DNA from: Streptomyces sp. ST2-7A
Lineage (GTDB): Bacteria; Actinomycetota; Actinomycetes; Streptomycetales; Streptomycetaceae
Assembly (NCBI RefSeq): GCF_021390475.1
Contig: NZ_JAJUWS010000007.1
Location: 62,001 to 126,000, forward strand
Direction of reading: 5' to 3'
DNA length: 64,000 bases
Within the stretch, counting starts at the first letter, position 1; each line of letters starts with the position of its first letter. Of the stretch, positions 231 through 9,806 are shown piece after piece. Below the pieces are notes generated by a model, which had not been told where the DNA came from, made no database searches, and saw nothing but the letters and a program-made list of their open reading frames with translations. Made by a program: the position numbers and the translations under genes.

Positions 231-339
231 CCCGGATTTCAGCGACTCTCCGGGGTTTCGTGCACTACCGGAGGTTCGCTGAAAAACCGCCCCCGATCCC
301 GCCGCCTGGACCATGTCTGACCTGGACCTTCACAATGGG
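231..339 (+). promoter_or_regulatory. CRISPR leader 1 with inverted repeat and promoter-like boxes
   Basis: This about 110-bp sequence recurs nearly unchanged before all three arrays. It holds an inverted repeat: left arm 237-253 (TTTCAGCGACTCTCCGG), a 14-nt loop, and right arm 268-284 with two mismatches. It also holds a candidate promoter: -35 TGGACC at 307-312, an 18-nt spacer and -10 CACAAT at 331-336. The spacing is identical in leader 2 and leader 3, so transcription would begin at about the first repeat. The promoter assignment is inference from conservation and spacing. Confidence 0.75.
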
Positions 340-1169
340 GTCCTCATCACCCCTACGAGGGGTAACAACAGGTGCCCGAGACCCGGATCCACCAGATCAC
401 CGGCCTGTCCTCATCACCCCTACGAGGGGTAACAACTGCACTGCACGGGCGATCTGGGCGTGCGCCCGGACGGGTCCTCATCACCCCTACGAGGGGTAAC
501 AACGACAGATCGACCCGGCGACCAGCCGCCCCGGTGAGGGTCCTCATCACCCCTACGAGGGGTAACAACGCGAAGTACAGCGCCTGGGCGTCGCAGATCA
601 GAGCCGGGTCCTCATCACCCCTACGAGGGGTAACAACCGCACGGCGGCGGCCTGTAGGCCGCGCACGGTGCGGCGTCCTCATCACCCCTACGAGGGGTAA
701 CAACCGCTCCTGGCCCGCGATGCCGGGGCCTCCGGACCGGTGTCCTCATCACCCCTACGAGGGGTAACAACGGGTGGGTGGATGCGGGTGATGGTCACGG
801 TGGGGGGGTCCTCATCACCCCTACGAGGGGTAACAACAGCACGGCGACGGCTCTGCGGATCATCGTGACGGGTCCTCATCACCCCTACGAGGGGTAACAA
901 CAGGCCGAGCGCCGCCGCAAGGAGGAGCGCGAGCGCCGTCCTCATCACCCCTACGAGGGGTAACAACAGGAGATGGGGCGGGACGGCGGGCGCATCACCG
1001 GCCGGGTCCTCATCACCCCTACGAGGGGTAACAACGCGGTACCGGGCCCCCGATCGGGCCGGGTGGTCTGGGTCCTCATCACCCCTACGAGGGGTAACAA
1101 CGTGGGGGAGGCGGCGGCTGGCCGGTCCTCGGGCAGGGGTCCTCATCACCCCCTGCAAGGGGTAACTAC
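340..1169 (+). CRISPR. CRISPR array 1, 13 repeats and 12 spacers
   Basis: The 30-nt repeat begins GTCCTCATCACCCCTACG and ends GAGGGGTAACAAC, with an internal stem ACCCC/GGGGT. Repeats start at 340, 407, 474, 540, 608, 675, 742, 808, 872, 938, 1006, 1072 and 1139. Spacers are 34 to 38 nt, mostly 36-37. The first 12 repeats are identical. The last, at 1139-1169, is degenerate (an extra C, TGCAA in the loop, TAACTAC end), as expected at the leader-distal end. Orientation is set by the leader at 231-339. No spacer could be matched to a target without a search. Confidence 0.98.
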
Positions 1170-1196
1170 CGGCCCTGCCCTGCGGGCTGGGAGTGG

Positions 1197-2001: not shown

Positions 2002-2082
2002 TCACCGTTGGGTGGTTCCGCACTTCCGGCAGCGCTGCGCGCCGCTCCAGGGCACCCAGTCGTGGTCACAATCGTTCCGCAT
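2002..2082 (-). CDS. 26-aa cysteine/histidine miniprotein
   Basis: The ORF encodes MRNDCDHDWVPW followed by a CRKC pair near the C-terminus, a possible zinc-binding C-x-H...C-x-x-C arrangement. It is preceded by a very strong Shine-Dalgarno sequence, AGGAGGAGA, ending four bases before the ATG at 2082. Its stop lies in the ribosome-binding region of the phosphotransferase gene 10 bp downstream, so the two are probably translated from one mRNA. The opening MRND is shared with the 82-aa protein at 7680-7928. No family is recognised. The strong ribosome-binding site is the main reason to call it real. Confidence 0.5.
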   Translation of the reverse strand: MRNDCDHDWVPWSGAQRCRKCGTTQR

Positions 2083-2171
2083 GTCTCTCCTCCTGGTGGT
2101 GGTTCCCGCAGCCCCGGCACGGTCGGGCCGGGAATGGCCGCCGATGCCGGACGGGCGTGTCGGGCCGCCGG

Positions 2172-2594
2172 TCACAGCCCGGCCCCGGCGGGTGTGGCGC
2201 GGCGCAGAGCCGCCAGTTCGGTGCCCTCCACAAGCCACAGGCGCTCGCCCGTGGCGATGTCCAACCGTGTGCCGTGCAGGCTGCGGGTCACCCGGGCGAC
2301 CTCCCAGCGGCGGTCGCCCACCAGGAGCACGTCGTGCTTCCGGACGGTGTCGCGGGTGACCGCCACCGTCGTCTCGGTGGGCGGGCGCGAGAGATGTGCG
2401 GGCGGGGGACCGGCGTGCGGGCCGCAACCGGGCCGCTCGCAGGCATACAGGGGTTCCTCGTGTTCCCCGGACCGGTCAACGGCTTCCGCTGTTTGGGTCA
2501 ACTCCCTGCACCAGGCGCAGCGGCGCAGACCTCGGACGGGGTCCCGGAGCACCGGGGCCATGGCCACCGATGCCCCGGGTCTCGGATCGGACAT
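2172..2594 (-). CDS. Small CxxC protein fused to a beta-rich domain seen in paralogues
   Basis: A 140-residue protein. Residues about 25-60 hold two cysteine pairs (CAWC and CERPGC), which suggests a zinc ribbon. Residues about 75-130 match, strand by strand, the separate 83-aa protein encoded at 7157-7408: TVRKHDVLLVG aligns with TVRVEDRVIIG, and TGERLWL with EGERLWL. The start at 2594 has GGAGGAGA six bases upstream. A motif TGTGACG..TGTA (plus-strand reading, 2620-2633) recurs upstream of the paralogous operon at 7943-7953 and may be part of a shared promoter. It lies between the XRE regulator and the 26-aa gene on the minus strand. Function unknown. Confidence 0.65.
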   Translation of the reverse strand: MSDPRPGASVAMAPVLRDPVRGLRRCAWCRELTQTAEAVDRSGEHEEPLYACERPGCGPHAGPPPAHLSRPPTETTVAVTRDTVRKHDVLLVGDRRWEVARVTRSLHGTRLDIATGERLWLVEGTELAALRRATPAGAGL

Positions 2595-2693
2595 GCCGTC
2601 TCCTCCATGGTGGTCATCGTGTGACGCACTGTATGAAGGGAGCGTGAAGGCAATATTCCTTTCGGTAATAGCCGCTGATCAGCGAGGTCTCAT

Positions 2694-3938
2694 TCACTCG
2701 TCCAGGTGAAAGCGGACGGACATGCGACGGATCTTCTCCTTCACTGTCGCGCGCTCCGCCGCCCGGATCCTGCGCAGCGTCGCGCGCGCGACCGGATGGT
2801 TGCGGATCAGCTGTGGAGCGGTCCGCTCGGCGGCCTCCAGCTCACTCAGTGCCCGCTCCCGCCGCCCGGACCACAGGTATGCCCGGGCCAGATCCATCCG
2901 GTAGTGCCCCCGCCGCGACCGGGGCAGCGCGGACACCACTGTTTCCGGGATCTCCTGGTGCAGCAGCAACGCCCGATCGTGCTGCGCCATCTCCAGCTCG
3001 ACATTCACGCCGTGGATCGCGACGTTGCCCCGGGAGAACGTCAACGAGTGCCGATCGAACGCCAGACGCGGCAGTCGGGAGGCCGCCTCCTCGGCTTCCC
3101 CGATCCGGTGCCGGGCCTCGGCCTCCGCTCCACCGCGCGCGGCGGACACCGCCGCCCGCAGGTGCAGGCTTCCCCACACCCGTACGGCCGCCGCGTCCCC
3201 CCGCCGGTACGGCTCCTCCACGGCACGTAGCGCCTGGTCGGTGAGCGCCAGGGAGTCGTCCCAGTCGGCGGTGGCCCACATGTCCCACACCCGCATCCAG
3301 TCGGCCACGGCCGGCAGCATCTCGTCGCCCGAGCGTCGAGCGGCCCAGGACGCGCGCTCGCAGCTCATCGCCACCAGCTCGGCGTGACCGAGGGCGTGCG
3401 CGGCGGTGTGCCCGAACTTGCAACCGACGGCGTACACCGCGTACGCCTCTTCCCGCTCCCGGCCGCTCGCGTGTTCCGCCAGGGCCCGGGCCTCCCGCAG
3501 CAGCTCCGGAAGCAGCTCCAGAATCCGGGAGTTCGCCGCGTCGTCCCGCAGCCGGTGCAGTACCGCCGTCTTCCGCCACAGGTCGGTGGACGACGGGGGA
3601 GCGCCTTCCCACCGGGGCGGCAGGTCGTAGCGGCGCAGCTCCCGCAGGATCAGTGCCGCCGACTTCTGCCACCGCACGTCTTCGACAGCCGTTGGGTAGG
3701 GCCTCTCGATCAGGTCGTTGGGATGGACGTGCAGTGCGGCGGCCAGTTCGTTGATGACACTGGTGCGGTCCAGCTCCTGACGGCCCTTCTCCACCTTGCT
3801 GACCCAGCCCTGCGAACGCCGCAGTTCGGCGGCGAGATCGGCCTGGGTCAGACCGAGGCGCAACCGGGCGTTACGGACGCGCTGTCCGATCGCCTCGGCC
3901 TCGGTGAGCATGATGCGCGGCGGACGGTGCTGGGGCAT
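2694..3938 (-). CDS. XRE-family regulator with TPR-like C-terminal region (regulator 1)
   Basis: A 414-residue protein. Residues about 15-75 form a helix-turn-helix of the Cro/CI (XRE) type: RVRNARLRLGLTQADLAAEL, then RRSQGWVSKVEKG. The remaining 330 residues are Ala/Leu/Arg-rich helices with TPR character (AYLWSGRRERALSELEAAE). The ATG at 3938 was chosen because ACGGAGG precedes it by about six bases; longer reading into upstream sequence lacks coding character. A TACCGT -10-like box lies on the minus strand about 36 bp upstream, as it does for regulator 3. Its N-terminus differs clearly from regulators 2 and 3, so it is a more distant relative. It points away from a relic CRISPR leader that begins about 200 bp upstream. 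Confidence 0.85.
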   Translation of the reverse strand: MPQHRPPRIMLTEAEAIGQRVRNARLRLGLTQADLAAELRRSQGWVSKVEKGRQELDRTSVINELAAALHVHPNDLIERPYPTAVEDVRWQKSAALILRELRRYDLPPRWEGAPPSSTDLWRKTAVLHRLRDDAANSRILELLPELLREARALAEHASGREREEAYAVYAVGCKFGHTAAHALGHAELVAMSCERASWAARRSGDEMLPAVADWMRVWDMWATADWDDSLALTDQALRAVEEPYRRGDAAAVRVWGSLHLRAAVSAARGGAEAEARHRIGEAEEAASRLPRLAFDRHSLTFSRGNVAIHGVNVELEMAQHDRALLLHQEIPETVVSALPRSRRGHYRMDLARAYLWSGRRERALSELEAAERTAPQLIRNHPVARATLRRIRAAERATVKEKIRRMSVRFHLDE

Positions 3939-4134
3939 CGTGGCCTCCGTTCGTCTTGCGGGTCGCACTCCGGACGGTACCCCCGGTCTTCGGGCCGGGA
4001 TCAGCGGAACGGCCCCAAGGCCGCCCGCTGACGGCGTCGTTCCGCTGTGCCGGCTCGCCGAGACCGACGGCCTGCCGATCATGACCGGCAACCCGCTCCA
4101 CCCAACTGCCCCGACCCCGGTCTCGCCCTCGCTG

Positions 4135-4267
4135 CCGGAGGTTCGCTGAATAGGGGAGAAGCCACCTCAACGGCATCGATGTCCACGATCAGGTGGACGA
4201 CGGCGCGCACGTCGTTCACAGCGGCCCGCCGGACCCTCTCGCCCTCGTCACCCTTACGGGGCAACAG
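4135..4267 (+). repeat. Relic CRISPR leader and degenerate repeat
   Basis: Positions 4135-4150 (CCGGAGGTTCGCTGAA) match 16 of 16 bases of the right hairpin arm of leader 1 (268-283). About 90 bp downstream, 4241-4267 reads GCCCTCGTCACCCTTACG then GGGCAACAGC. It aligns with the array 1 repeat with about five substitutions and a two-base gap. No further repeats are visible before the next gene ends at 4340. The layout (leader arm, then repeat, on +, about 200 bp upstream of a divergent XRE gene) matches the intact modules. I infer a decayed fourth array; the repeat match alone would be weak. Confidence 0.5.
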
Positions 4268-4339
4268 CACGCGGCCGTGGTGCCGGACGCCTCGCTCCCC
4301 GGCTCCCCCTTCCTGTGCCAAGGGGAGGGACGAACCCCG

Positions 4340-5530
4340 CTACAGGGGCAGACGCACCGCTTCGGCCAGCTCTCGCATCCGGGGGGTCAGAGTTCGGCGC
4401 CGCCGCACCATGCGGCCCATGATGTCTCGCGCGTACCGCTGGTGGGGGAGCCACTGGGGCGCCGCCCGGTGCACGTCGAGCAGGGTCTCCACGGCATCCC
4501 CGTACTGTCGGGTGCGCACCTGGGCGTCTGCCACGTCGAGAAGGTGACGGTTGCGGTGTCCGACAACGGGGGCCAGTTTCCGACCGTTGATGCGTCCGGC
4601 CACCTTCAACGCGGTGTCGGGACGGTCGCAGATCACGGCGAACTCGGTGCGCTGCATCGCCACGGTCAGCGGCCCCCAGGTCCGGGTGCGGCCGGAGGTC
4701 TGCGAGCCGTCTCCGCGTGGTTTCTCCCCGGCCCACAGTGCCGCAGCCGCCTCGGCCAGCCGCAACGCATGTTCCGCCTCGTCCTCCCTGGCGTCCCGCG
4801 ACGCCGCCGCGGCCACTCGCCCCAGGGCGATGCCCCAGGCCGCCAGGTCTTCCGGCATGGCCCGGGACAGCCGGGGCTCCAGCTCATCCGCCCAGTGGGC
4901 GGCCAGATCCCGGGCCTCGGAGAGGCGCCCCTGCCGCAACAGCAGCCAGCACCGACTCTCCACCATGTCGGCCGCTGTGGTCACCCCCTGTACCAACCCG
5001 GCCTCCTCCGCCCGGTCCAGCGCGAGGGCGGCGGCATCATATTGGCGGGTCTGAATCATCAACCGTCCCGCCAACAGCAGCACCCGGGCCTGCACCGGTC
5101 CGCCGAGCGCGGCGGCGTCCCGCAACAGGCGGGGAAGCATCTCGGCAGCGGCGGCCAAGTCCTCTTTCACCAGGCGTGTCCCCATGGCGTTCAGCGCCCC
5201 CGTGACACCGGCGATGGTGGGAGGGTGGTCCCCTTCCACGGCTTCCTCGGCGTTCGGATCGAGAAGCGCGGCACGGACCGGGGCCCACGGGACGGCGGGG
5301 TCCGAGTCCTGCGGGGGTTGGTACTCCGCCACCAACAAGGCGGTGGTGGGAACTCCGAGGGCGGCGGCGAGCCGGCGGGCGGTTTCCAGCCGTGTGTCCT
5401 GCCGGGCGCCCTGTTCCAACTTGGAGATCAGGGAAAAGGAGAGGCCGGCGGCGCCCGCGAGTTCCCGTTGGGTGAGACCCGCGCGTTTCCGCGCTTCGCG
5501 AAGACGGTCCCCGAAGTTTTGATCAACCAT
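4340..5530 (-). CDS. XRE-family regulator with TPR-like C-terminal region (regulator 2)
   Basis: A 396-residue protein beginning MVDQNFGDRLREARKRAG. Residues about 6-65 are an XRE helix-turn-helix (GLTQRELAGAAGLSFSLISKLEQG). The rest is helical and repeats-rich, ending RYARDIMGRMVRRRRTLTP. It is a full-length paralogue of regulator 3 (8049-9218): FGDRLR.ARK.AG, RLETARRLA.AL and the C-terminal RNRHLLDVA and HQRYARDI blocks are shared. The start at 5530 follows GGGAG; a TACCGC-like box lies about 46 bp upstream. CRISPR leader 2 starts about 215 bp upstream on the other strand. No small cargo gene follows it; the relic array lies downstream. Confidence 0.85.
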   Translation of the reverse strand: MVDQNFGDRLREARKRAGLTQRELAGAAGLSFSLISKLEQGARQDTRLETARRLAAALGVPTTALLVAEYQPPQDSDPAVPWAPVRAALLDPNAEEAVEGDHPPTIAGVTGALNAMGTRLVKEDLAAAAEMLPRLLRDAAALGGPVQARVLLLAGRLMIQTRQYDAAALALDRAEEAGLVQGVTTAADMVESRCWLLLRQGRLSEARDLAAHWADELEPRLSRAMPEDLAAWGIALGRVAAAASRDAREDEAEHALRLAEAAAALWAGEKPRGDGSQTSGRTRTWGPLTVAMQRTEFAVICDRPDTALKVAGRINGRKLAPVVGHRNRHLLDVADAQVRTRQYGDAVETLLDVHRAAPQWLPHQRYARDIMGRMVRRRRTLTPRMRELAEAVRLPL

Positions 5531-5744
5531 GGCTTCACGACTCCCGTTCCATCGGGCAAGAGGTCGCTCCCAGGGGCGGTATGCCCGGTTCCCGAGTGGA
5601 ACCAACGACCGGGCACCGCATGGGCGAAAACGGTGTGCTTCTCCCATGGAACTCCTCGCGCCACGCCTCGGTACCCATGACCGGAGGCGAGTTGAGTGCG
5701 GTGTACGAGCCCTCGGCGGAGGTCTGTCGGCGTAGTCTGGGACC

Positions 5745-5853
5745 CCCGGATTTCAGCGACTCTCCGGGGTTTCGTGCACTACCGGAGGTCTGCTGAAAAA
5801 TCGGCTGTCGAGGGCGCTACTCGACTGTGCCTGACCTGGACCTTCACAATGGG
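5745..5853 (+). promoter_or_regulatory. CRISPR leader 2 with inverted repeat and promoter-like boxes
   Basis: Near-identical to leader 1. Inverted-repeat arms are 5751-5767 and 5782-5798 around the same 14-nt loop. The candidate -35 TCGACT is at 5821-5826 and the -10 CACAAT at 5845-5850, again with an 18-nt spacer. The right arm reads GGTCTGCTG where leader 1 has GGTTCGCTG. Confidence 0.75.
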
Positions 5854-6873
5854 GTCCTCATCACCCCTGTGAGGGGTACCAACTCACACTCCGACCGCAG
5901 GATGCCCGCGGCCCACCGCGTCCTCATCACCCCTGTGAGGGGTACCAACTTCCGGCCGCCGGCCTTCATCGCCGCCACCTCGTCACGTCCTCATCACCCC
6001 TGTGAGGGGTACCAACGGCGCCTCCCGGGCGTAGTCAGTGAGCAGGTATCGCGTCCTCATCACCCCTGTGAGGGGTACCAACGGCCTGTGGCGGGTGGAC
6101 CTGGGGGCCGTCTCCGAGGTCCTCATCACCCCTGTGAGGGGTACCAACCCCCAGCGGGACCCGGCGAGGGTCACTCCGTAGTGCGTCCTCATCACCCCTG
6201 TGAGGGGTACCAACGCCGCCGGGCCGATCTTGCCCTCAATCGACGTGAGGTCCTCATCACCCCTGTGAGGGGTACCAACTCCCCGCCGGTGGTGCGGACC
6301 GCGCGGACCGGCCGGAGTCCTCATCACCCCTGTGAGGGGTACCAACAAGTTGGCGCGGGCCACGGAGGACGCACTGACGACGGGTCCTCATCACCCCTGT
6401 GAGGGGTACCAACAGCGGGAGGCGATCCGGGCAGCCGAGGCGACCGAGGCGTCCTCATCACCCCTGTGAGGGGTACCAACCCCGGCCGCGCGTACGTCAG
6501 CAGCTCGCGGAACCTCGTCCTCATCACCCCTGTGAGGGGTACCAACGCGAGGTACGCCTCGATCTCCGACGCACGGGCGGTCGTCCTCATCACCCCTGTG
6601 AGGGGTACCAACGCGCTGGTGCTGCTGCAGTACAGCCGGTCCGCACGGGTCCTCATCACCCCTGTGAGGGGTACCAACCACGTACCCCTCGGGGCGTCCC
6701 ACCGGATGAGCAGGGGTCCTCATCACCCCTGTGAGGGGTACCAACGGATCAATCCAGTCCGACCGCAACATCCGAATCTCGGGTCCTCATCACCCCTGTG
6801 AGGGGTACCAACACCAAGGCCCGGTTCAGCAGCCCTTCCGCGGCAAGAGGTCCTCATCGCCCCTGTGAGGGGC
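5854..6873 (+). CRISPR. CRISPR array 2, 16 repeats and 15 spacers
   Basis: The 30-nt repeat begins GTCCTCATCACCCCTGTG and ends AGGGGTACCAAC. It differs from array 1 at the loop (TGTG for TACG) and near the 3' end (TACC for TAAC). Repeats start at 5854, 5920, 5987, 6053, 6119, 6185, 6250, 6317, 6384, 6451, 6517, 6583, 6649, 6716, 6783 and 6850. Spacers are 35-37 nt. The last repeat keeps only about 24 bases (ATCGCCCC, ending GGGGC), marking the leader-distal end. Confidence 0.98.
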
Positions 6874-6923
6874 AGGGGCGTTCCAAGAGGGGAGTTCTTC
6901 CCCGGGTGTCGCCGAGGTGGGAT

Positions 6924-7160
6924 TCAAGCGTTCTCCGTCGGTGAGGTCGAGGCGCGGGCGGTGGCGTGGACGCGTTCGGTCAGACGGTCGGTGCATTCCC
7001 GGCAGGCGGTCAGGGGCACCCGCAGGGGGCCGTGCTCCACCGTGCCGAGCCATTGCACGGGGAGTTCGTCCCGGTCGCACCACAGCCAACAGGTCCCCGA
7101 GTGCCACCGGTCGGGGAAATGGTCGCGCACCATCGCCGGCGGGTGTATTCGGCTGCTCAC
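6924..7160 (-). CDS. 78-aa cysteine-pair small protein
   Basis: Translation reads VSSRIHPPAMVRDHF, then CWLWC at residues 24-28, and CREC at about 53-56, so four cysteines in two pairs suggest a small zinc-binding fold. The GTG start at 7160 overlaps the TGA of the upstream gene (GTGA), so it is translationally coupled. It is the last of four coupled genes downstream of XRE regulator 3 and converges on array 2. Residues resemble the N-terminal cysteine part of the 140-aa protein at 2172-2594, which seems to be a fusion of this type of protein with the next one. Function unknown. Confidence 0.6.
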   Translation of the reverse strand: MSSRIHPPAMVRDHFPDRWHSGTCWLWCDRDELPVQWLGTVEHGPLRVPLTACRECTDRLTERVHATARASTSPTENA

Positions 7161-7408
7161 CGTTCTCGGTTTCCGGAGGGGTCGATGTCGGGGTCGCGGA
7201 AGGCGGTGAGTCGGCTGCGGGTGGTCAGCCAGAGGCGTTCGCCCTCTTCGAGGTCGAGGCGGACACCGGTGTGGGTGCGAACCACGTCCACGATCCGCAT
7301 GGGGACCCCGCCGATGATGACGCGGTCCTCGACACGGACGGTGGTGCGGGTCAGGGCCACCGTTTCCATGTACTCGCCGAATCCGAGCGCGGGCTCGTGG
7401 GCGGTCAT
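7157..7408 (-). CDS. 83-aa small beta-rich protein, paralogue of the 2172-2594 C-terminal half
   Basis: The protein reads MTAHEPALGF..., with the core TTVRVEDRVIIGG, then VRLDLEEGERLWLTTRSRL. The same pattern occurs as residues about 75-130 of the 140-aa protein at 2172-2594 and in a relic ORF at 44359-44499 (TGERVWLTASGEL). I chose the ATG at 7408, which overlaps the upstream stop (ATGA), over the in-frame ATG at 7414. It is coupled to both neighbours. No cysteines or membrane segments. Not assigned to a named family; a small beta-barrel or SH3-like fold is possible from the strand pattern only. Confidence 0.65.
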   Translation of the reverse strand: MTAHEPALGFGEYMETVALTRTTVRVEDRVIIGGVPMRIVDVVRTHTGVRLDLEEGERLWLTTRSRLTAFRDPDIDPSGNRER

Positions 7409-7683
7409 CGCCACCGGCCGGGGACGGCGCGGTACGGGCGGGTGATGATCTCCCGGTAGGACAGGTGCTCGGGATGGGCGCGCAGGTGGGCGAGCATCCA
7501 GCCGGTGAGGTGTCCGCCACCCTCACCGGTGGGCCCGAGGCGTCCGCACACCGCGCACTGCCCGGTGAAGGCGATGGGTTCGGCGTCCGGTTCGAGGTCG
7601 GGCTCGATGGAGTACTCACGGAAGCGGAACACCCCGGTAGGGGTGTCGGTGTCGGCGCCGGACCGCCCGGGCGGGGCGGTCAC
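7405..7683 (-). CDS. DUF7848-like small protein
   Basis: A 92-residue protein. Its centre, FREYSIEPDLEPDAEPIAF, followed by GQCAVCGRLG and near the C-terminus HLSYREIITRPYRAVP, resembles the small Streptomyces proteins annotated as DUF7848, in which a CxxC pair and a final REIIT block are typical. I recall that family from general knowledge and could not check it. The GTG start at 7683 overlaps the preceding TGA (GTGA). Second gene of a four-gene coupled cluster behind XRE regulator 3. Function of the family is not known. Confidence 0.7.
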   Translation of the reverse strand: MTAPPGRSGADTDTPTGVFRFREYSIEPDLEPDAEPIAFTGQCAVCGRLGPTGEGGGHLTGWMLAHLRAHPEHLSYREIITRPYRAVPGRWR

Positions 7684-7928
7684 CGTGCCTCGTCCGCGCA
7701 CATCGGGCAGTGCCACACCGGCGTGCCCTCGTCGTTCTCCCCGACCGGCCGACCCTCCTGGGTGAGGGTGGAGCAGGCGGCGCAGCGCACCAGCGCCCGC
7801 ACCGGTCGAGTGCCCGGCACCGGGAGCGGTGGCGGGGTGTCGGCCAGACCGGCGGCGGCGTCGGCCAGGTCCTCCCGACGTTTGCGTTGCTGCGGGGTGA
7901 GGCGGTGGGTGGGCGCGTCGTTGCGCAT
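7680..7928 (-). CDS. 82-aa double-CxxC small protein
   Basis: The protein begins MRNDAPTHRLTPQQRKRRED and has CAAC and CPMC pairs (residues about 48-51 and 75-78), a typical zinc-ribbon spacing. The ATG at 7928 follows CGGGAG by six bases; a GTG 12 codons further upstream has no ribosome-binding site. The TGTGACG..TGTA motif at 7943-7953 lies just upstream and also precedes the paralogous module at 2594. It is the first gene of the coupled set and starts about 90 bp after the XRE regulator 3 region. Its MRND opening is shared with the 26-aa protein at 2002-2082. Confidence 0.6.
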   Translation of the reverse strand: MRNDAPTHRLTPQQRKRREDLADAAAGLADTPPPLPVPGTRPVRALVRCAACSTLTQEGRPVGENDEGTPVWHCPMCADEAR

Positions 7929-8016
7929 GGGAACTCCCGTGATGTGACGTGTACTTTCCGTCACTCACCACGCTAGGGCGGGGATGGGGTGGGCCTCAAC
8001 GTCGGAGCGGTGTCAC

Positions 8017-8052
8017 TTAAGCCGAGAGTGACGACTTGTGCCACACCGTCAC
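8017..8052 (-). pseudogene. 11-codon remnant resembling the start of a DUF397 protein
   Basis: A GTG at 8052 overlaps the stop of XRE regulator 3 (GTGA) and opens a reading frame VTVWHKSSLSA followed at once by TAA. Streptomyces XRE regulators are commonly followed by a coupled DUF397 gene whose product begins W-x-KSS-x-S. The match in position, coupling and first residues suggests a truncated DUF397 gene. It is very short, so it could also be a real coupled micropeptide or chance. Confidence 0.4.
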
Positions 8053-9218
8053 GTGGGTAGATGGACTCTCTGTGTCAACTGACGCATTTCGGGGGTCAGT
8101 TTGCGGCGACGCTCGGTCATCGCCTGCACGATATCCCTGGCATACCGCTGGTGCCCGAGCCACTGGGGTGCGTCCCGCTCGACCCGCAGCAGGGTCTCCG
8201 TCGCCTCCCCGTACCGTCGGGTGCGGATCTGGGCGTGTGCCACGTCCAGGAGATGACGGTTCCGACTGTTCACCGTGGGGGCCAGTCGTAGAGCGCCGAT
8301 GCGGTCGGCCAGGCGCAGCACCTCGTCCGGGCGGTCCTCCACCATGGCCCGTTCCGCCCGCTGCATGGCCACCGTCACCGAGGAGAATCCCCGGTAGAAC
8401 CCGGCCGTTCGCGCTTCCTCGGCTCCGCCCGGCCGCATCATCGCTCCCGCTGCGGTGGCCAGACGGAGGGCGTGTTGCGCGTCGTCGGAACGACTGTCCC
8501 GGGCGGCTGTCGCGGCCACCCGGAGCAACATCGCTCCCCACGCGGAGAGTTCTCCGTTGGTGGCGGTGGACAGGCGCGGTTCCAACTCCACGGCCCACCG
8601 GGCGGCCAGATCGGAGGCTTCCTCCAATCGCCCGCTGCGCAACAGAAGCCAGCAGCGGTTGTTCGCGAGTGAGGCGCCGTGGAGGGTGTCGGGCACCAGG
8701 CGGTCGGCGCGGTCGAAGGCCGTGGACGCGGTTTCGTACAGGCGGATTTGCGTCATCAGCCGCCCGGTGAGTTGCAGGACGCGCATCTGCAAGGAGGTGT
8801 CGGCGAGGGCTGTGGAGTCGCGTACCAGGGCGGGGAGGAGAGTCGCCAGGTCCGTGAACCGGCCGCGCACGTAGAGATCCACGGCGGAGTTCAGGCCCGT
8901 GCTCACCCCGGCGGGTGTGGGTTCTTCCTCGATGTCTCCAGGGCTCGGTGCGGTCACGGTGGCCACCAACTCCGCCCACAGGTCGTGATCAACCGGCGGT
9001 GCGCTCTCCCGGGGTTCCGTGGCGAGGAGTCGAGTGGTGGGGATATCGAGCGCGGAGGCCAGCCGGCGTGCGGTTTCCAACCTGCTTTCCCGACTGCCCT
9101 GCTCGATCTTCCGGATCATGGAGAGGGACACGCCGGACCGGGCGGCGAGGTCGTGTTGGGTGATGCCGGCCAGTTTGCGAGCTTTCCGCAGGCGGTCCCC
9201 GAAGGTGTGTCCTGGCAT
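8049..9218 (-). CDS. XRE-family regulator with TPR-like C-terminal region (regulator 3)
   Basis: A 389-residue protein starting MPGHTFGDRLRKARKLAG. An XRE helix-turn-helix covers residues about 6-62 (GITQHDLAARSGVSLSMIRKIEQG); the remainder is helical with TPR character, ending RYARDIVQAMTERRRKLTP. It is the clear paralogue of regulator 2. The ATG at 9218 is preceded by GGAGA; a TACCGT box on the minus strand lies about 45 bp upstream. CRISPR leader 3 begins about 245 bp upstream on the opposite strand. Downstream are the DUF397-like remnant and four coupled small genes. Likely binds DNA near its own promoter, hence possibly near leader 3; that is inference. Confidence 0.85.
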   Translation of the reverse strand: MPGHTFGDRLRKARKLAGITQHDLAARSGVSLSMIRKIEQGSRESRLETARRLASALDIPTTRLLATEPRESAPPVDHDLWAELVATVTAPSPGDIEEEPTPAGVSTGLNSAVDLYVRGRFTDLATLLPALVRDSTALADTSLQMRVLQLTGRLMTQIRLYETASTAFDRADRLVPDTLHGASLANNRCWLLLRSGRLEEASDLAARWAVELEPRLSTATNGELSAWGAMLLRVAATAARDSRSDDAQHALRLATAAGAMMRPGGAEEARTAGFYRGFSSVTVAMQRAERAMVEDRPDEVLRLADRIGALRLAPTVNSRNRHLLDVAHAQIRTRRYGEATETLLRVERDAPQWLGHQRYARDIVQAMTERRRKLTPEMRQLTQRVHLPT

Positions 9219-9461: not shown

Positions 9462-9575
9462 CCCGGATTTCAGCGACTCTCCGGGGTTTCGTGCGCTACC
9501 GGAGGTCTGCTGAAAAATCGGCTGTCGAGACGGGGGGCTCGACTGTGCCTGACCTGGACCTTCACAATGGGGACG
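9462..9575 (+). promoter_or_regulatory. CRISPR leader 3, with 4 extra bases at the leader-repeat junction
   Basis: Inverted-repeat arms are at 9468-9484 and 9499-9515. The -35-like TCGACT is at 9539-9544 and the -10 CACAAT at 9563-9568 with the same 18-nt spacer. Unlike leaders 1 and 2, where three bases separate CACAAT from the first repeat, here seven do (GGGGACG). Confidence 0.72.
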
Positions 9576-9806
9576 GTCCTCACCACCCCTATGAGGGGTA
9601 CCAACGTCGATCTCCACTCTGTGATCAGCGCGTCCCGTGATCGGTCCTCACCACCCCTATGAGGGGTACCAACGACAGCGCCCGGGTGAGTACGGCGTCC
9701 GCCTCGGTGGTCCTCATCACCCCTATGAGGGGTACCAACATCAGGTCCGCGACCACGTGCATGGTCGCACCGACCGGCCCTCCTCACCCCTGTGAGGGGT
9801 GCCGAC
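9576..9806 (+). CRISPR. CRISPR array 3, short: 3 full repeats plus a degenerate terminal repeat
   Basis: Repeats start at 9576, 9644 and 9710, with a degenerate one at about 9781-9806. Spacers are 38, 36 and about 40 nt. The repeat carries TATG in the loop and ends GGGGTACCAAC. The two leader-proximal copies read GTCCTCACC where the third reads GTCCTCATC as in arrays 1 and 2. Since new repeats are copied from the first repeat, this pattern fits a mutation in the first repeat followed by at least one acquisition. Confidence 0.93.

Follow-up and report, generated by a model that had tools for sequence, protein, structure and literature searches.

Small genes between the CRISPR arrays of Streptomyces sp. 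ST2-7A as probable cargo of a regulator family shared with R4-like phages

What is the role of small genes that lie between arrays of clustered regularly interspaced short palindromic repeats (CRISPR)? In Streptomyces sp. ST2-7A, two minus-strand modules of such genes, module A (2002-2594) and module B (6924-7928), lie together with XRE-type genes between three CRISPR arrays in a 64,000-nucleotide stretch of contig NZ_JAJUWS010000007.1 (positions 62,001 to 126,000; hereafter the window, to which plain coordinates refer). The original prediction had called these genes recurrent cargo and had taken their position, with the regulator link, as a possible sign of a toxin-antitoxin, anti-phage or regulatory role. 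Our analysis indicates that modules A and B are probably cargo operons of helix-turn-helix (HTH) regulators that belong to one family common to phages and hosts (phrog_5823), and that for module B the regulator XRE-c would bind a dyad behind its own stop codon and control the cargo, the small proteins acting as feedback partners. For the small genes, a part in regulatory switching is more likely than a role as toxin or novel defence system.

Three regulator genes, all on the minus strand, were identified: XRE-a (2694..3938; E 1.1e-72 with phrog_5823), XRE-b (4340..5530; E 3.2e-100) and XRE-c (8049..9218, 389 aa; E 2.3e-101). The phrog_5823 profile spans nearly the whole length of all three proteins. 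XRE-c is 51% identical to the Janus regulator and 49% identical to phage R4 gp52, and XRE-b, which has neither cargo nor dyad, is 55% identical to XRE-c. The phylogenetic tree showed that XRE-b, XRE-c and the S. calidiresistens orthologue form one clade (100/100) inside a larger mixed phage/host group and that XRE-a stands on a long branch. Both modules are real minus-strand genes, each downstream of an HTH gene, at the coordinates that had been predicted.

Module B carries four genes on the minus strand: B1 (7680..7928), coding for an 82-aa zinc-ribbon-like protein; B2 (7405..7683), a DUF7848 protein (PF25232; phrog_10944) with invariant C46, H66 and H73 and near-invariant C43; B3 (7157..7408), an 83-aa beta protein predicted to form an EF-P/eIF5A domain-I-like barrel; and B4 (6924..7160), a 78-aa Cys-rich protein (CWLWC..CREC) for which an ATG at 7133 is a possible alternative start (69 aa). 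The overlaps claimed for these genes are present, GTGA joining B1 to B2, and B3 to B4 if B4 starts at 7160, and ATGA joining B2 to B3. Against Pfam DUF7848 the B2 protein scored 91.4 bits (curated cut-off 24.5), and it matched phrog_10944, the family of R4 gp50. Its nearest named relatives are those of S. alkaliphilus (91% identity) and S. calidiresistens (87%), the species near which the 6.18-Mb source genome is placed. A dyad, GTGACG-N9-CGTCAC (7944..7964), lies just upstream of B1 and is conserved in S. calidiresistens, and a putative promoter-like element of the module, TTGAGG-N18-TAGCGT, was read at 7970..7999 on the minus strand. Reading frames, overlaps and dyads are kept between species.

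A tblastn search with XRE-c returned 53 phage records with at least 80% of the query covered. When compared by eye, 33 of the 40 regulator records listed, some of them two records of one phage, were among the 43 records with an R4-gp50-like DUF7848; the remaining seven (Diane 2, Attoomi 2, P1312, Vash 2) are exceptions, and Attoomi carries a divergent gene that is DUF7848-like by eye. In phages R4, Janus and Hank144 the order is regulator, 82-aa gene and 80-aa DUF7848 gene, the small genes overlapping, and the triad lies between the integrase and ribonucleotide reductase genes. The order regulator, small gene, DUF7848 was found at all 20 DUF7848 loci from IMG/VR, not all of them independent, including one where the gene caller missed the DUF7848 gene that tblastn covered (L162) and one where the contig begins within the regulator gene (L177). 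By our reading the small gene codes for a beta-type protein at 13 of these loci, a 70-aa protein at six and a 108-aa protein at one. Exceptions are phiBT1 and Lilbooboo, whose DUF7848 genes lie near the integrase with no annotated regulator of the phrog_5823 kind in the stretches shown; phiBT1 gp25.3 (DUF7848) adjoins attP and the integrase gene (L075, 2535-3081). A scan of viral sequences with the alignment labelled A2 confirmed nothing. The idea that XRE-c is a phage immunity repressor was rejected, since in R4 a different gene, gp29, is annotated as the repressor; a repressor-stoperator system has been reported for this phage (PMC10276819).

Directly behind the stop codon of many phrog_5823-type regulators we found a dyad, TGGCACTT-N(about 17)-AAGTGCCA. 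In most of the hosts TTGA comes next, with TACGGT or TAGCGT some 17 nucleotides further on; these two elements may together represent a promoter. The strict dyad is present behind 13 of 37 regulators (5/10 phage loci, 8/20 host loci, 0/3 window genes and 0/4 further relatives). At the survey and host loci, with 1,313 genes in all, the strict dyad lies behind nine genes, every one of them a family member (0/1,304 for the others). In 150 whole genomes the dyad followed by TTGA occurs four times, and all four sites directly follow a gene of the family; the reversed control gave zero. A degenerate candidate operator, TGGCACAA-N17-AAGTGACA, lies on the minus strand at 8011..8043, just after the XRE-c stop codon; it agrees with the family dyad at 13 of 16 positions, in the same place and with the same spacing, and only 3 of 3000 shuffles reached 13. 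The corresponding sites of XRE-a (9/16) and XRE-b (10/16) are at background. The idea that all DUF7848 operons have a common operator was rejected: the best 8-mer, which differs from the TGTGACG..TGTA motif described below, occurs in 12 of 94 upstream regions vs 3 of 285 controls (Fisher 7e-6, uncorrected), and there is therefore no element common to most DUF7848 operons.

Taken together with the gene order, these data suggest a model for module B. XRE-c would most likely bind the dyad that directly follows its stop codon, close to the putative -35 box of the cargo genes, and would then control the cargo, probably by activation, in response to a signal that its C-terminal region may sense. The zinc ribbon, the C2H2-like DUF7848 protein, the EF-P-domain-I-like beta protein and the Cys-rich B4 would most likely be protein partners through which the regulator, or transcription itself, receives feedback. 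This feedback is proposed by analogy with what has been suggested for the DUF397 protein BldB and WhiJ, the closest parallel that has been studied: without BldB, a neighbouring gene is activated in a WhiJ9-dependent manner, and a link between the two proteins is assumed (PMC10294661).

The DUF7848 protein B2 was modelled with a predicted local distance difference test (pLDDT) score of 87 as strands around one helix. In this model the spacing of C43, C46, H66 and H73, which is C2H2-like, suggests a putative zinc site. No confident PDB match was obtained (Foldseek best E 0.31; VIA best Z 3.5), so that assignment to a known fold was rejected; a missing match is no proof of a new fold. The B3 model (pLDDT 83.6) has six strands, and its top rows in Foldseek and VIA were mostly eIF5A/EF-P (best E 0.008; Z 6.9, which is below 8; root mean square deviation 2.0 over 56 residues). 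The likeness to EF-P/eIF5A domain I lies in the predicted fold, with weak sequence support; unlike those proteins, B3 is a single 83-aa domain without additional OB domain(s), and a fold shared with EF-P domain I gives no function by itself.

Module A consists of A1 (2172..2594, minus strand; 140 aa), in which a zinc-ribbon-like part (CxxC..C) is fused to a B3-like beta domain with no DUF7848 between them, and A2 (2002..2082, minus strand), a gene for a 26-aa CxxC peptide with a strong Shine-Dalgarno sequence, AGGAGG, and no convincing relative among the fetched loci. A1 had been proposed as a fusion of the 78-aa cysteine type with the 83-aa beta type. The beta half of this proposal stood, the C-terminal part matching B3 (45%, E 2e-12), but the ribbon is of another source: the N-terminal part matched B1 (47% over 36 aa, E 9e-6) and gave no match to the 78-aa B4. 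In a paralogous operon of the same genome (contig C22, 90.3-90.9 kb) the counterparts of the two A1 halves (C22:90288-90440 and C22:90722-90919) flank a DUF7848 domain (C22:90456-90686), which is there fused to the ribbon, as it also is in S. alkaliphilus (L067). Because its two halves flank DUF7848 in that operon, A1 appears to be a product of DUF7848 loss, the remainder of a ribbon-DUF7848/beta operon, and module A would be a shortened version under the distant paralogue XRE-a. The motif TGTGACG..TGTA, claimed upstream of both first genes, is indeed present at both; the gaps differ, however (3 and 0), and only the module B copy lies within a dyad, the one upstream of B1. As TGTGACG-N0-4-TGTA it occurs twice in the 64 kb (2620 and 7943; 0.05 expected; 0 of 100 shuffles with two), a count made with a pattern derived from those same two sites.

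To place the modules among their relatives, DUF7848 was searched in the source genome, which gave 14 matches, some partial, and in 150 genomes of the family, of which 76 carry it (75 above the curated cut-off); four plasmid records also carry it. Neighbours were surveyed at 94 loci, namely the 14 of the source genome and the first 80 ranked matches from elsewhere, a choice in which weak matches are under-represented; contig ends cut several loci short, and two of the source-genome loci (L025a and L025b) overlap. Genes were called by an in-house script, and 13 of the 94 DUF7848 genes were placed by rule after the caller had missed them. For the Pfam scan the closest gene coding for 150 aa or more was taken on each side, which gave upstream genes at 77 loci and downstream genes at 76, of which 68 were scanned (8 long ones dropped). 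The upstream genes showed HTH_31 (30), HTH_3 (23), DUF5753 (23) and HATPase models (up to 7), in overlapping sets, and neither HTH_31 nor DUF5753 was among the 25 families listed for the 68 downstream genes. In the searched flanks of the 94 loci DUF397 was found at 25 and the host beta protein at 28. The description as recurrent cargo and the suggested regulatory role were thus both supported by the number of copies and genomes, by XRE-rich upstream neighbours and by the same order in R4-like phages. No paper naming DUF7848, and no title or abstract on this cassette of regulator, small gene and DUF7848, was found in a search of the open-access literature.

Genes typical of ribosomally synthesized and post-translationally modified peptides were seen near some DUF7848 loci: isoaspartate methyltransferase at 7/94, ATP-grasp at 3/94, both counts including one gene common to two overlapping loci of the source genome, and a lasso-peptide-like cluster at 1/94, the names being our own reading aided by single-sequence searches. 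The lasso-peptide-like cluster (precursor, asparagine-synthase-like, PqqD-like and transglutaminase-like genes; C22:91255-94006, or 7255-10006 of L023) directly follows a regulator/ribbon-DUF7848/beta cassette of the source genome. At another locus (L230, 4793-8001) a cassette of regulator, beta gene, DUF7848 and a 161-aa gene precedes what may be a graspetide cluster (precursor, ATP-grasp, methyltransferase).

Several results weigh against the cargo reading. XRE-c-type regulators were found at only 12 of the 94 DUF7848 loci and DUF5753-type regulators at 23 of 77, and 51 of the 77 upstream genes are divergent; DUF7848 thus accompanies more than one type of regulator. For B1, B3 and B4, relatives were found at 3/94 survey loci each, nearly all of them in the source genome. 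Homology of B3 to the beta proteins of phages and hosts was rejected, as none could be detected and HHalign lent it no support. The dyad was found by inspecting these very loci, so that its presence there is partly selected, and 24 of the 37 regulators are without the strict form, including all three window genes, with no trace at XRE-a. The absence of the strict form behind these 24 regulators slightly lowered our confidence, and the hitchhiking explanation considered below was rated slightly higher.

The setting of the modules is as follows. The left edge of the window is the end of a type I-B-like CRISPR-Cas operon with Cas6, Cas7/Cst2, Cas5, Cas3, Cas4, Cas1 and Cas2, some of them below the curated cut-off, and one 496-aa gene with no profile match. 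The cas2 gene immediately precedes leader and array 1 (231..1180); leader and array 2 (5745..6880) are divergent from XRE-b, and leader and array 3 (9462..9740) from XRE-c. All three arrays are on the plus strand and have similar leaders. A probable leader relic with one decayed repeat (4135..4266, plus strand) lies upstream of XRE-a; its leader part has a 16-nt exact match (4135-4150) and an alignment score of 18.5, not above the shuffle maximum of 23.5, and its repeat (4243-4266) scored 15.5 vs a shuffle maximum of 12.5. The relic hints at a tandem duplication of array and XRE units. An APH-type phosphotransferase-like gene (1197-1991) lies immediately downstream of A2. In a search of the spacers of arrays 1 and 2 against known phages, the best E was 0.3 for array 1, and array 2 gave zero matches. 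In an S. calidiresistens array (L066, 936-1624) a spacer pair recurs alternately, as if a two-spacer block had been duplicated.

The cassettes and arrays may merely be hitchhiking in the same variable islands, with cargo roles that are unrelated or decaying. The relic array, the lack of cargo behind XRE-b, the DUF7848 loss of A1 and the variable genes behind host regulators all point to fast turnover, as this explanation supposes. We nevertheless consider it unlikely, since frames, overlaps and dyads are kept between species and the gene order is kept in phages.

The position between arrays had itself been read as a link to defence, and an anti-phage or CRISPR-accessory function, under which the arrays would have the modules or regulators as controllers or partners, was weighed accordingly. 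XRE-b and XRE-c start divergently from the leaders of arrays 2 and 3, and XRE-a from the relic leader and repeat; S. calidiresistens keeps the divergent order for b and c. In the source genome DUF7848 lies within 6 kb of four of six array loci (C1, C7, C12 and C22; not C18 and C28), which are of types I-B and I-E, and random placement, with shared islands not modelled, reached at least 4/6 in 0 of 20,000 trials; the 6-kb limit and the count of six were, however, set after seeing the data, with two repeat types searched and with weak repeat pairs (C19, 2 kb from DUF7848, and C70) and single hits left out. Arrays were also found at four of ten loci of named relatives (L065, L066, L069 and L073). 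The position thus looks non-random in the source genome and is common to its sister species, but elsewhere the defence link was largely not borne out: arrays were detected at 2 of the 80 survey loci from other genomes, one clear (L120) and one doubtful (L102), and at none of 20 XRE-c-family loci within flanks of about 3.4 kb. In other genomes no DUF7848 among the matches listed, checked by eye, is closer than 20 kb to a cas1 of type I-E. Array 1 lacks an XRE gene although its leader resembles the others. The survey of neighbours thus found DUF7848 outside this lineage largely in a non-defence setting. Since the CRISPR link is common to the source genome and its sister species and is rare at other loci, it looks lineage-bound.

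Two arrangements touch on this link. In the source genome (C22:1-10000; L031) an XRE-DUF397 pair and a DUF7848 gene lie between type I-E-like arrays, and in S. chumphonensis (L073) the order is similar to that of L031, with an array nearby.

None of A1, A2 and B1-B4 matched PADLOC-DB at E 0.01 (0/6), which gives the anti-phage suggestion no support, and the PADLOC matches of the regulators are confined to the N-terminal HTH region. Among DUF7848 neighbours the upstream PADLOC matches were mostly HTH models, with single matches to CARF, Csa3 and PDC-S07, and the downstream ones (n=68) were mad2 (4), Csa3 (3), pVip (2), GajA (1) and other singles. We regard a defence or array-related function as very unlikely. 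Speculative, and likewise very unlikely, is the further idea that R4-like phages and hosts share a ligand- or peptide-sensing HTH switch that turns on zinc-finger and beta-barrel partners through a dyad behind the regulator's own gene, and that copies captured between arrays in this lineage, divergent from the leaders, tie array expression to a phage-derived signal.

Least probable of all is a toxin-antitoxin system with the regulator as antitoxin and a small cargo protein as toxin: the shared operon of an HTH gene and small genes, the number of copies, the occurrence in phages, matches of the regulators to antitoxin HTH models such as TIGR03070 (below cut-off) and the toxin-antitoxin role once proposed for XRE-DUF397 (PMC2701414) speak for it, but the small proteins matched no toxin family in Pfam, NCBIfam or PADLOC, XRE-b stands without cargo, and none of fourteen analogous XRE/DUF397 pairs, reported as pleiotropic regulators (PMC10364602), behaved as toxin-antitoxin on overexpression.

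If the modules are indeed regulator cargo, small families without a known role, DUF7848 and its partners, gain a setting as cargo of regulators of hosts and R4-like phages, together with a DNA element. The role of R4 gp50-gp52 beside the integrase is directly testable, since R4 grows on laboratory Streptomyces (the host according to its record). A gene may lie between CRISPR arrays without having a role in defence.

Compared with known systems, the regulators resemble the RRNPP-type HTH-TPR proteins (AimR, PlcR and ComR) in that an N-terminal HTH is joined to a C-terminal part of comparable size, in which TPR signals are weak (TPR_19 at E 0.025 in XRE-a; TPR chains at E ~1e-4, no single stretch passing alone); ComR profile hits cover the HTH only, and no propeptide was identified, no systematic search having been made. 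The XRE-DUF397 (WhiJ/BldB/AbaA) cassettes likewise combine an HTH regulator with small partner genes in many paralogues per genome, and DUF397 accompanies DUF7848 at the 25 loci noted above. The regulator of XRE-DUF397 pairs usually carries a DUF5753 domain; in contrast, XRE-a, XRE-b and XRE-c gave no DUF5753 match, the six small proteins gave no DUF397 match, and the window modules carry other small families. From the gp52-gp51-gp50 cassette of R4-like phages (Arquatrovirinae; phrog_5823, phrog_15135, phrog_10944) the modules differ in that the phage cassette adjoins a serine integrase and not CRISPR, that its middle gene is mostly of an 80-aa beta type with no detectable relation to B3, and that the ribbon, B3 and B4 were not seen in phage. 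With that cassette they share the regulator family over its full length, the order of regulator, small gene and DUF7848 with overlapping starts, and the dyad after the regulator stop codon, which in the window is degenerate.

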